From Viridothelium virens (Eukaryota; Ascomycota; Dothideomycetes; Trypetheliales; Trypetheliaceae), in NCBI GenBank assembly GCA_010094025.1, contig ML991906.1:1-28665 (forward strand): 28,665 nucleotides of DNA. Reading direction: 5' to 3'. The notes under the pieces were generated by a model. The model was not told the origin of the DNA. It made no database searches and saw only the letters and a list, made by a program, of their open reading frames with translations. Below are positions 24,379 to 28,665 of this stretch, one piece after another; the stretch's first letter is position 1; the number at the start of each line of letters is the position of its first letter. The position numbers were made by a program, and so were the translations under genes.

Positions 24379-25002
24379 ATGGTTCGTATGGCAGAAATCT
24401 AGCTTCAGGGACTTACTAAATCCTAAGTAGTCGGCCCAAAACTCAGCTGGAATCCAGACACTACTCGATGTAGGGCAACCCCATTAAATTAAGCGTTCAC
24501 TGCTAAGTTTGATCAACAGGCCGAGCGGGAAGCCCAGAAGATCGTTCAAAAGGGTATGTACAGTCCTAGATTGATTCTACAGTCATGATCTGATTTCACC
24601 ATTAGCCAGAGAATGTACGACGAATATCACTATGATCAACTGCTTCTTCTGTAGCCATTAACACCGTCTAGACCGAACTAAGCGAGTAAAAGACGCAAGG
24701 AGCGAGGCACAGAAAGAGATAGAAGATTACAGGAAACAAAAGGAAGAAGAATACAAAGCTTTTGAGAAAGAGGTGTGTTGAGACTGGTAACTGCCGGGCG
24801 AAAGTCAAGGTCCTAACGAAAGGCATAGCATTCGAGCGGCAACCAGAAGGCCGAAGATGACGCCAACAAGGACACAGAGGAAAAGCTGAAAGAGATCAAG
24901 GGTATCGGAGATAAGCAGGGCAGTAAAGTCATTGATGATTTGCTTAAGGCAGTATTTGACGTCAAGCCAGAGGTGCCTGACAGGATCGAGGCACCAGCAT
25001 AG
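24379..25002 (+). CDS. VMA10: V-type proton ATPase subunit G, six exons with a 9-base micro-exon
   Basis: Exons 24379-24381, 24431-24469, 24520-24553, 24606-24614, 24672-24772 and 24829-25002 give 119 residues, with phases agreeing at every join. The protein begins MSAQNSAGIQTLLDAEREAQ, the conserved start of fungal subunit G. KIVQKAREYRTKRVKDARSE and a long Lys/Glu-rich coiled-coil follow, ending RIEAPA. Subunit G pairs with subunit E to form the peripheral stalks holding the catalytic V1 head to the vacuolar membrane sector. Exon 1 is just the ATG and needs a GTTCGT donor; the matching acceptor (TAG at 24430) has a good branch site ACTAAAT. Exon 4 is nine bases (ccagagaat) and supplies A-R-E plus the first base of Tyr; without it the conserved KAREYR core is lost. 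Introns are 49, 50, 52, 57 and 56 bases. Confidence 0.93.
24606..24614 (+). other. 9-base micro-exon of VMA10
   Basis: ccagagaat, between an acceptor ccattAG and a donor GTACGA. It is bounded by a 52-base and a 57-base intron and restores the KAREYRTK core of subunit G exactly in frame. Confidence 0.85.
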
Positions 25003-25456: not shown

Positions 25457-26913
25457 ATGTTACAAATTTGCACGAGAAAGGCCAAGATTTCTTCCAGAGT
25501 CTCTCTAGCATATAGGATACGCCACGCATGCCTGCATACTTCATCTCTGCGACTAAGGTCAGCTCCAGACCCGCGACTACGCGAGGAGAATTTGATTGAA
25601 GACGCATTTGCAACGATTAGAGACACTTATCGTTCGAGGTACCCTGCCCTTTTACGTGAGATCCAAGGCTGATTGTGTCCTAGAAGCCCCCCGAAATCCT
25701 ATCATTCTTGCCCATGGCCTCCTTGGCTTCGATGAGCTCCACCTCCTGGGGGAGCAGCTCCCAGGGATACAATACTGGAGAGGCATTACAGAAGCGCTAG
25801 CAGCACGAGACATAGAAGTTATTACTGCCACCGTACCACCGTCTGGATCGATAGAGGCAAGAGCACAGAAGCTCGCGGGATGCATTCGGCGCAAGGCTCG
25901 GGGTAAGAGTGTCAACATTATTGGGTAGGACTATCCCGGACTGTCCTGACCGTTCATTTACTATAATGCTAAGAACAAGTAGTCATAGCATGGTACCGGC
26001 TATTCCAAAAATTATGCCAACACAGCTAAACTTTCAGTAGGGGTAGGAATGCATACCAAATACTCAAGCAGGCTGCTAAGCTTGATAGTGGTCTTGATGC
26101 TCGATTTATGATAAGTAGGCTTCGACTTCCAGACGTCAGAGTGCTATCTCTGACTACAATTGCGAGTCCCCACAGAGGTGCGTCCCCTCAGTATACGTAC
26201 GATGCCTTCCCGTCGTTGCTAATTGCTAAAGGTTCTGCATTTGCGGACCATCTCCTCAAGCAAATCGGTCGTAAGACCCCCTGTAGTTTTATAACCTTCT
26301 CGAAGTTGACGACAAAACAGCGACGCAGCTGCCAAGATTGTACAAAGTCCTTGAGTACTTCGGGATCGAGAGTGGCGCATTCAGTCAATTGACTCGTGAA
26401 TACATGCTCAACGAGTTCAACCCAAAGACCCCAGATTTGGATACAGTACGGTGAGCTTTTTCATTTCCAGAGCCCATCGATCTCTGTCAAAGCCCCCAGA
26501 CCAATAACTCAGTAGTTGTTATTCGTATGGGGCTACTGTAGAACCGACACTGCTATCGATGTTTCGGCAATCTCATCGCGTAATCCAAGATATTGAAGGC
26601 CCAAACGACGGCCTGGTCTCCGTTGAGTCTAGTAAATGGGGCGTGTACAAAGGTACTCTTCTTGATGTCAGCCATCTTGACCTCATAAACTGGACAAATC
26701 GGCTGCGTTGGATGATCTGGCACTTGACAGGAAACAAACGAAAGTAAGGTCTAGAGTCCATTGCGCTGAGATCAATAGCTTGCCTGACATGGACCAGTTT
26801 CAACGCTATAGCATTCTACCTGGACATCGCTGGTAGGTTCCACTTTACGACAGCAAAGATAGAAAGCTGACATTCGTGGTACCCTAGACATGCTGGCAAA
26901 AGAGGGCCTTTGA
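25457..26913 (+). CDS. Alpha/beta-hydrolase lipase (Tgl2-like), ten exons
   Basis: Exons 25457-25631, 25684-25924, 25983-25992, 26041-26042, 26089-26177, 26232-26270, 26321-26450, 26516-26743, 26798-26832 and 26888-26913 give 324 residues; all phases agree. HGLLG (69-73) is the oxyanion-hole strand. GHSMGG (139-144) is the nucleophile elbow with Ser141. Asp260 (GPNDGLVS) and His282 (VSHLDLINW) are the likely remaining triad members. PGIQYWRGITEAL and TATVPPSGSIEARA match fungal triacylglycerol lipases; yeast Tgl2 is a mitochondrial relative. Residues 1-34 are rich in Arg, Ser and Leu without acids and look like a mitochondrial presequence, so a mitochondrial location is inferred. An in-frame ATG at 25331 would add 42 residues. 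The first intron needs a GTTCGA donor, which alone gives DTYQAPRNPIIL. The elbow requires a 10-base and a 2-base exon; if this is wrong the gene is broken at its active site. Confidence 0.85.
25983..26042 (+). other. Lipase micro-exon pair: 10 bases, 48-base intron, 2 bases
   Basis: 25983-25992 is tcatagcatg. Intron 25993-26040 has donor GTACCG, branch GCTAAAC and acceptor cagTAG. It is followed by gg (26041-26042), then donor GTAGGA at 26043 with a 46-base intron ending gatAG (26088). Joined, these read G-H-S-M-G-G-L-D, the exact lipase elbow. Confidence 0.6.
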
Positions 26914-27860
26914 TGCTTCCCCGTCCCCCATGCATGAGTGGTGATTGGAAGGCTTCCCCACGGCTCTTACCAAGTTCGTACAATTCGTCAATGTATTTGT
27001 TCTCACAATAAATGCATACAAATTATGCCGATCAAAACGTCCAGTCTTTTGCAAAGTCACATATTTAAAGCTTAAGATCTGCTTTGCGTTTAGTAAGTGT
27101 TGAAATTGTTCATATGGAGAAATGCGAATTAGGGAGCTCTATGACTATGACTTCACTCCTTGGGGTTGAGTCAGTTCCACCTGTCGAGTCTCGAGGTCAA
27201 ATGCCAGCGTATTCTAGAGATCCAAAGCATTGGAATAGGCAATAAAATAAAATTAAGCAAAATAGTAGAGATTTCAAGCTCCTAAGGCATCGATGAAGAG
27301 GATATTACCATCGCTTGGGGAATTGCGTTTGGTCCGAGAATGAAGTAAGTCAAGGTCTGAATTTAGAACCGAATAGTAACCGTCACAAGTTATTCGACGG
27401 GGTATTGACCCTTGAGGTCAATTGGGTACTTGCAGTCAGACTTTGTCCTGGCCTGGATTGATTATTGTTGTTTATCTCAGTAAACTCAGCCTCTAGAATG
27501 AAGAATGCTTGCAGCGCTACGCGCTGCTTGCTAGGGGCCCTGCTTAGTCGGAGTTGTTGATTGGTTTTTATCACGCTTGTGGCTGCGCTATGAAGCGAAC
27601 CAATTAGATGTTGTAATTCGCATTCTTTGTTCTAGAGTCTGAGTTACACTTATTCTGACTTTGCTGTGGATCAAAAATGCTGTAATAAAGCTGAAGGGCT
27701 ATCTTTTAGGCATTAAATTTTGACCCTCCAACCTCCTTCCCTTTATCCAATTTTTACAGCTATCTCTTCATAAGTACCTAAAATAAGCAGGTTTCTGCAT
27801 TCAACTCTCTATGTGCCTTTATTCTTAAGTAATACTAATATCTGTAGGAACCCCTTTTGA
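26914..27860. other. Intergenic, AT-rich, no gene seen
   Basis: About 950 bases with many stops in all frames. A perfect 7-bp hairpin GCAGCGC-tac-GCGCTGC lies at 27511-27527. No RNA gene or mobile element was recognised. Confidence 0.5.
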
Positions 27861-28119
27861 CCTGCCTACCTACCTGCCTACCTACCTGCCTACCTACCTA
27901 CCTATCTACCTAGCTACCTAGCTACCTAGCTACCTAGCTACCTAGCTACCTAGCTACCTACCTGCCTGCCTGCCTGCCTAGCTACCTGCCTACCTAGCTA
28001 TCTGCCTACCTAGCTACCTAGCTACCTACCTAGCTACCTACCTACCTGCCTGCCTGCTTGCCTAGCTACCTGCCTACCTAGCTATCTGCCTACCTAGCTA
28101 CCTAGCTACCTACCTGCTC
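27861..28119. repeat. Degenerate tetranucleotide array (CCTA/CCTG/GCTA)n
   Basis: Nearly uninterrupted four-base periodicity of cctacctg, cctagcta and close variants. A block reading roughly gctacctgcctacctagctatctgcc occurs twice (around 27980-28015 and 28065-28100), so the array has also grown by a larger duplication. No coding potential. Confidence 0.9.
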
Positions 28120-28665
28120 ACACCCACCTAGGCAGAGGTGCGAGACCTACGCAGACACTCACACAGCAACCTACGCAGCGATCTACGCAGCGACCTACAC
28201 AGCGACTTACGCAGAGACCCACGCAAAGATCTACGCAGAGACCTACGCAGAGACCTACGCAGAGACCTACATAGAGACCTACATAGAGACCTACGCAGAG
28301 GTATAAGACCTAGCTAGGGACCTCTGCGCAGACCTTTCATCTCTACGCAGGTTTCACACCTCTAGCTAGATCTCGCACCTCTGCCTAGGTCTCTATGTAG
28401 GTCTCTATGTAGGTCTCTGCGTAGGTCTCTGCGTAGGTCTCTGCGTAGATCTTTGCGTAGGTCTCTGCGTAAGTCGCTGCGTAGGTCGCTGTGTAGGTCG
28501 CTGCGTAGGTCTCTACGTAAGTCGCTGCGTAGGTCGCTGTGTAGGTCGCTGCGTAGGTCGCTGCGTAGATCGCTGCGTAGGTTGCTGTGTGAGTGTCTGC
28601 GTAGGTCTCGCACCTCTGCCTAGGTGGGTGTGAGCAGGTAGGTAGCTAGGTAGCTAGGTAGGCAG
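28086..28665. repeat. Large imperfect palindrome of 12-base units at the window end
   Basis: The left arm (28086 to about 28317) is the reverse complement of the right arm (about 28362 to 28665), around a spacer of about 44 bases. Both arms carry ctgctcacacccacctaggc, a linker gacactcacacagcaac, and tandem 12-base units of the form gacctacgcaga, gacctacgcagc and gacctacataga. The right arm is longer by about six units. The left arm continues leftward into the tetranucleotide array, and the right arm shows the same array beginning at the last bases, so the palindrome probably continues past the window. No TTAGGG telomere repeat is present. The 83-codon minus frame at 28362-28613 (RSDLRSDL) is a by-product of the 12-base period. 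Confidence 0.92.

Follow-up and report, generated by a model that had tools for sequence, protein, structure and literature searches.

A probable two-nucleotide exon in the active-site elbow of a Tgl2/LipA-like lipase gene of the fungus Viridothelium virens

A lipase gene on contig ML991906.1 of Viridothelium virens raises the question of how a conserved active-site motif can be assembled across introns that lie only two bases apart. The original prediction held that gg at 26041-26042 acts as a two-base exon between two short introns, and the exons, introns and gg that it proposed are all present in the window, by which we mean the whole 28,665-nucleotide stretch of DNA analysed. From the enumerated splice products and their homology, we consider it likely that 26041-26042 is a constitutive two-nucleotide exon between complete introns that are predicted to be removed consecutively.

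The gene (25457-26913, plus strand, as are all features of the model below) was modelled with nine exons and eight introns; translation of this model gives a reading frame that is open from the ATG at 25457 to the stop codon ending at 26913 and a product of 342 residues. A search of the PDB with this product returned LipA-type lipases, mostly over its N-terminal half (best E value 1.5e-15; 6e-12 for 1EX9), and four bacterial loci align over most of its length at 30-35% identity, reaching the C-terminus; six of 22 plasmid records were taken into the bacterial comparison. The NCBIfam scan gave a single match, far under its cut-off, to a lipase model (residues 124-155). Sequence alignment predicts a catalytic triad of Ser141, Asp278 and His300, which together with the GxSxG motif and colinear homology to LipA-type lipases places the product among the Tgl2/LipA-type lipases. 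We use the label Tgl2/LipA-like because the closest structural homologue of yeast Tgl2, itself an enzyme with a Ser-Asp-His triad, is Pseudomonas aeruginosa LipA (1EX9) according to PMC11889585. A protein search of the 30.7-Mb, 175-contig genome found no second copy (E<=1e-3; own exons only), a 301-base nucleotide search of the same genome returned the self-match only, and no relatives were found among viral contigs. The gene therefore appears to be a single-copy nuclear gene for a Tgl2/LipA-like triacylglycerol lipase of predicted activity. Its basic, Ser/Arg-rich N-terminus resembles a mitochondrial presequence and suggests targeting, and the product is probably a fat-splitting enzyme of mitochondria.

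Exon 1 (25457-25631), an open frame whose presumed start is the ATG at 25457, is followed by intron 1 (25632-25683; 52 nt, GTTCGA...GCTGATT...TAG), and the junction formed by its removal, DTYQAPRNPIIL, agrees with DTYAATRYPVIL/DNYAATRYPIIL of PDB lipases in the PDB alignments. The donor of this intron, GTTCGA (25632-25637), is poor and is anchored by homology to the DTYxAxRxP of PDB lipases; further downstream lies a stronger donor, GTGAGA, but its use would reduce the intron to only 28 nt. Exon 2 (25684-25924), which ends in VNIIG-, has homology to PDB lipases and bacterial relatives, and intron 2 (25925-25982; 58 nt) reads GTAGGA...GCTAAG...TAG. Beyond the elbow, exon 5 (26089-26270) opens with -GLDARFMISRL... 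and has homology to bacterial relatives; it is followed by intron 5 (26271-26320; 50 nt), exon 6 (26321-26450), an open frame of the nine-exon model, and intron 6 (26451-26515; 65 nt), which ends in CAGTAG. Exon 7 (26516-26743) carries the predicted catalytic Asp278 (GPNDGLVSV) and His300 (SHLDLIN), and intron 7 (26744-26797; 54 nt), exon 8 (26798-26832; 35 nt) and intron 8 (26833-26887; 55 nt) lead to exon 9 (26888-26913), which ends in ...DMLAKEGL and the stop codon, with a C-terminus alignable to the bacterial relatives.

In this model the nucleophile elbow spans four exons (...GG / TCATAGCATG / GG / TGGT...). The 10-nt micro-exon TCATAGCATG (25983-25992) encodes His-Ser-Met and so contains Ser141, predicted to be catalytic; intron a (25993-26040; 48 nt) has the donor GTACCG, the branch motif GCTAAAC and the tandem acceptor CAGTAG; the 2-nt micro-exon GG (26041-26042) follows; and intron b (26043-26088; 46 nt, GTAGGA...GCTAAGC...TAG) leads to TGGTCTTGAT. 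The GG exon is flanked on both sides by GT, AG and a branch-like motif, as befits an ultra-short micro-exon, with a weak donor in intron a. The claim that each intron possesses its own donor, CTAA-type branch site and TAG acceptor is accordingly correct as far as the letters go, with a reservation about the strength of that one donor. Within GTAGGGGTAGGA (26037-26048), two donors (26037, GTAGGG; 26043, GTAGGA) sit at the CAG and TAG acceptors, and for this reason rival splice readings arise. The tandem acceptor CAGTAG ends two introns of the gene, at 26035-26040 (intron a) and 26510-26515 (intron 6). For intron 6 the bacterial alignment is ungapped with the second AG (judged by eye, the first-AG form being unscored); in both introns homology favours the second AG and the first AG is also in frame (for intron 6, again by eye).

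To determine which splicing patterns give the family motif, possible products were enumerated in two ways. With sequential chains of at most three GT-AG introns of 35-130 nt, GHSMGGLDAR came from only one of 152 in-frame chains; with nesting allowed, by successive removal of at most three GT-AG introns of 38-130 nt, it came from one of 242 in-frame products. The original statement that the motif can be rebuilt only with a gg exon is therefore true of the exact motif, which among the products enumerated arises only from the two-base-exon product. A GxSxG joined to LDARF was obtained in three of the 242 products, namely the two-base-exon product, a product with GHSIGLDAR that corresponds to a [D1,2] spliceosomal twin intron (stwintron), and GTSIGLDSGLDAR, which is made without the His-Ser-Met exon. 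Two further products contain the gg exon and use the acceptors 26115 and 26118; they keep GHSMG and lose LDARFMIS. Use of the CAG acceptor with the donor at 26043 yields ATG TAG, a stop codon. Wrong splice choices at the elbow are costly.

Six of the enumerated products were then scored against a profile of 13 bacterial homologues and three were scanned with Pfam. The two-base-exon product scored 167.3 bits, ahead of the five others by 12.8-32.2 bits (154.5 bits for the 88-nt-intron product, 153.9 for the [D1,2] stwintron product, 151.9 for the 79-nt-intron product, 142.4 for the 54-nt-exon product and 135.1 for the skipped form). At E<=1e-3, Pfam matched the two-base-exon product to PGAP1, Palm_thioest, DUF676, Abhydrolase_1 and Thioesterase (three of these five matches exceed the curated cut-off) and gave no match for the stwintron or 54-nt-exon products. 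Over the elbow, 16 distinct bacterial genes were aligned: 15 run without a gap from Ser to Ser+7, and Arg occupies Ser+7 in 14, as it does in the two-base-exon product; the exceptions are L014, with a 7-residue gap after GHSMGG, and L013, with Arg at Ser+8. Since L010 and L046 are one gene, the 17 aligned loci count as 16 genes and the 13-protein profile as 12 distinct genes. GHSMGGLDAR itself occurs in three bacterial genes (L007, L008 and L009), and the elbow spacing in three PDB alignments equals that of the two-base-exon product, whereas the stwintron product is one residue shorter there.

The likelihood that such an arrangement occurs by chance was evaluated with shuffles that preserved dinucleotides and kept GT 25993 and AG 26088 fixed while the sequence inside was shuffled. 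AG/GG/GT with both introns at least 40 nt long appeared in 0.495% of 20,000 shuffles (0.77% and 0.115% at minima of 35 and 45 nt, respectively). Over the 164-nt region 25925-26088, a sequential chain of any kind that yields GHSxGG from introns no shorter than 40 nt appeared in 7 of 60,000 shuffles. These frequencies bear out the earlier judgement that chance is unlikely to give the motif: the two-base arrangement is real and an accident is unlikely.

The splice sites themselves point the other way. The reference set comprised 67 model introns collected from 228 kb with a motif-seeded finder, which replaced a first codon/Markov finder that had returned only 17 poor introns; their median length is 57 nt, their donors lie near GTRAGT and their branch motifs near RCTRAY, which is in keeping with a filamentous ascomycete. 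Ribosomal protein L3 of this genome points to such an organism as well, its nearest PDB chains being 8oo0, 7olc and 7r81 of Chaetomium thermophilum and Neurospora crassa (452-456 bits; 406 at most for the chains that follow). The GTACCG donor of intron a, at -2.5 bits, scores lower than that of any of the 67 model introns; the comparison is harsh because these introns were picked partly for good sites. None of the 67 has C at +5, as GTACCG does, and 63 have G, which also occupies +5 in all ten other introns modelled in the lipase and V-ATPase G genes. A donor-free selection of introns for the +5 frequency proved too noisy (it gave 23 GT sites, where five decoy dinucleotides gave 6-15) and was abandoned. 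Intron 6 of the lipase also has a total score below all 67, and the donor of intron 1 is near the bottom. A splice-site score alone would miss intron a, since 29% of the 3,528 GTs found in long ORFs can be paired with an AG to give an equal or better score. In 40 of the 67 model introns, 9-13 nt separate the branch A from the acceptor; nine of the 67 have the 11 nt that apply to the TAG of intron a, and two have the 8 nt that apply to its CAG. The first AG after the branch A is used in 47 of 67, and the TAG of intron a is the second. The GCTAAG of introns 2 and b places a G after the branch A, which occurs in none of the 67, and the scan chose more distant motifs in its stead. Ranked by its weakest intron, the two-base-exon model scores 7.4 and is surpassed by the stwintron at 8.1 and by the 54-nt exon at 10.5. 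Splice-site scoring gives the two-base-exon model no support; protein homology does, and it is homology that argues for the predicted inclusion of GG in the mRNA.

The alternatives were weighed against this evidence. A reading absent from the original prediction dispenses with the micro-exon: a true [D1,2] stwintron (as defined in PMC5639578 and PMC12403724), in which an internal intron at 25993-26037, ending in CAG, splits the external donor G(25992)/TAGGGG, and the 52-nt external intron consists of 25992 plus 26038-26088. The internal intron lies between G1 and T2, as that class demands, and the mRNA would read AGC ATT GGT CTT GAT, giving GHSIGLDAR in frame with GxSxG kept; its weakest intron is the stronger of the two models, and its acceptor is the AG that comes first beyond the branch motif, at 8 nt. 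The unit begins with two Gs, as every [D1,2] stwintron does according to PMC5639578, and PMC12403724 reports that the stwintrons described are almost all of the [D1,2] type. This product nevertheless scores 13.4 bits below the two-base-exon product, has no Pfam match at E<=1e-3 and displaces the conserved Arg, which comes to stand at Ser+6 instead of Ser+7; held to the conserved protein, a standard of plausibility that lies outside the published definition, it is one residue short. The reading also depends on a weaker external donor (GTAGGG, 3.7 bits, versus 5.7 bits for GTAGGA) and on the same weak GTACCG donor, and it would make the exact family match of the micro-exon a coincidence of about 0.5%. 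We therefore judge this chief rival distinctly unlikely; it requires the cDNA AGCATTGGT, and the cDNA ATGGGTGGT would speak against it. If instead intron a is exonic, exon 3 would run from 25983 to 26036 with a single intron at 26037-26088 (GTAGGG), inserting VPAIPKIMPTQLNFH after GHSM in an inactive retained-intron isoform or in the only product. Such a transcript is in frame, does not need GTACCG and has the best weakest intron of the three models (10.5 versus 7.4 for the micro-exon); moreover, the length of intron a is divisible by three, it is free of stops before its last codon, and codon usage gives no sign that it is non-coding (14 codons scoring 0.44 against flanking-exon medians of -0.11 and -0.14 in equal windows). 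The insertion breaks GxSxG (G-H-S-M-V), costs 24.9 bits and leaves no Pfam match at E<=1e-3, which makes this reading highly improbable.

Gene decay, an assembly error or some other splice choice could also account for the locus, with no functional elbow and an accidental gg. One donor is very weak and there is no second copy for comparison, yet the nine exons are otherwise intact, the triad residues and the C-terminus are conserved, and the arrangement would arise by chance at about 0.5%; we regard this explanation as improbable. A combined reading, which overlaps both the micro-exon and the stwintron and which we hold to be rather unlikely, treats CAGTAG/GG/GTAGGA as a dual-use switch. TAG would give the 2-nt exon (GHSMGG, active), CAG would give the [D1,2] stwintron (GHSIG, an altered enzyme), and retention of intron a with the donor at 26037 would give a catalytically dead insert form. 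Were this true, the locus would represent a natural transitional form linking tandem introns to stwintrons, in which a three-base shift of the acceptor converts one into the other.

Under the favoured two-base-exon model, introns a and b, each complete, would be recognised by intron definition, described as the rule in ascomycetes (PMC6616335), and removed in succession. Just two bases separate the acceptor of a from the donor of b, so that joint engagement is unlikely, and machinery on the donor of b would overlap the acceptor of a; from this we infer consecutive removal. Intron b would probably leave first, a guess that follows from its better donor, and the weak-donor intron a next, giving an mRNA predicted to read GGT CAT AGC ATG GGT GGT CTT GAT (GHSMGGLD) and an active enzyme. 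The stepwise removal put forward originally is sensible in the light of the overlapping sites and intron definition, but the stwintron mechanism attached to it was wrong. Excision of intron a was said to bring gg next to GTAGGA, whereas gg at 26041-26042 already adjoins 26043 and the excision joins ATG to gg. Closeness to stwintrons does not hold either: what defines them is a splice element of one intron interrupted by another, and the splice elements of a and b are both uninterrupted. With gg directly followed by GTAGGA in the gene and no donor split, the micro-exon model falls outside the stwintrons sensu stricto.

Several features that might have accompanied the arrangement were looked for. 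Introns a and b were considered as products of a duplication, and this was rejected: their alignment, with a score of 7.0, is slightly better than usual for introns, yet 7.1% of 946 intron pairs do as well and the difference is not significant; alignment of intron a with intron 2 revealed no likeness. The region 25985-26095 showed no unusual RNA folding (z 0.55), and GTAGGGGTAGGA was rejected as a repeated element, with six copies in 30.7 Mb against 21 for the backward-read control. The lipase is not the only gene in the window with a tiny exon: a V-ATPase G gene has a 9-nt micro-exon, CCAGAGAAT (24606-24614), flanked by introns of 52 and 57 nt; with it included, 94 residues fall on 94 PF03179 positions and align ungapped to the PDB subunit G. 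This upstream gene (24554-25002, plus strand) encodes a VMA10-like V-ATPase subunit G (PF03179, E 6.4e-28, downstream of its first exon). Elsewhere in the window, about 16 tandem 18-base units (GCGGAAGTCCCAGCAACG) occupy 170-459 and, their length being a multiple of three, are perhaps a coding repeat. The region 27860-28609 at the window end, open in several frames, contains long tandem arrays: one kind has 4/8-base units (ACCTACCT), and two further arrays have 12-base units with the consensuses GAGACCTACGCA and CTCTGCGTAGGT, which are mutual reverse complements.

If confirmed by RNA, the arrangement would place a two-nucleotide exon, one of the shortest known, in a nuclear gene of a fungus. 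No described 2-nt exon was found in open-licence PubMed Central texts, among the titles and abstract openings of the matches listed. Automatic annotation is likely to miscall a two-base exon, and the arrangement offers a test case for tandem introns turning into stwintrons. Because an error at the elbow should kill the enzyme, splicing fidelity might, if the model is true, be read out as enzyme activity.

Among known proteins, yeast Tgl2 and P. aeruginosa LipA share with the present product its probable family, the GxSxG motif and the Ser-Asp-His triad, here predicted; LipA is bacterial and, unlike the lipase described here, needs no splicing, and Tgl2 is likened by its description in PMC11889585. 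Among splicing arrangements, fungal [D] stwintrons (PMC5639578, PMC9024468, PMC12403724) are likewise adjacent short U2 introns of ascomycetes that are removed consecutively; by contrast, the favoured model interrupts no splice element and leaves two exonic bases between the introns, although the elbow bases also permit a [D1,2] reading via the CAG acceptor. The 'lipase stwintron' of lipS was set aside as a direct precedent: PMC5639578 describes a different, hormone-sensitive-lipase-like gene (Pfam07859; 871 aa in Aspergillus nidulans) whose stwintron splits a Pro codon. The stwintrons sensu lato, or complex intervening sequences, of Lipomyces (PMC7138796) resemble the present locus in their neighbouring or abutting donor copies and in the alternative outcomes of one cluster, and differ in that their introns are nested in a two-step scheme with no exonic base between. 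Tiny internal exons are known from other ascomycete genes, such as the 3-nt exons of Dactylellina haptotyla lipS (PMC5639578), the 15-nt, alternatively included exon II of Aspergillus niger rtnA (PMC6616335) and the alternatively included micro-exon of Trichoderma Xlr2 (PMC11121469); those of lipS and rtnA are longer than the exon predicted here.

The predicted two-base exon would work like an ultra-short plant micro-exon. The single-nucleotide exons of plant APC11 and VPS55 (PMC4674806, Guo and Liu 2015; PMC8831610, Nat Commun 2022) are likewise ultra-short, constitutive and frame-essential and lie between complete introns, for which intron definition and sequential removal are thought to apply. 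Guo and Liu argued for consecutive removal around the 1-nt APC11 exon and cited potato invertase, in which the second intron leaves before the first (PMC4674806); plant micro-exons of <3 nt are treated as a class in PMC8831610, the main text of which does not use the wording '2-nt'. The plant exons are 1 nt long and RNA-validated, whereas the fungal exon is 2 nt long, lies between introns of 46-48 nt in the nucleophile elbow of an enzyme, and is predicted.
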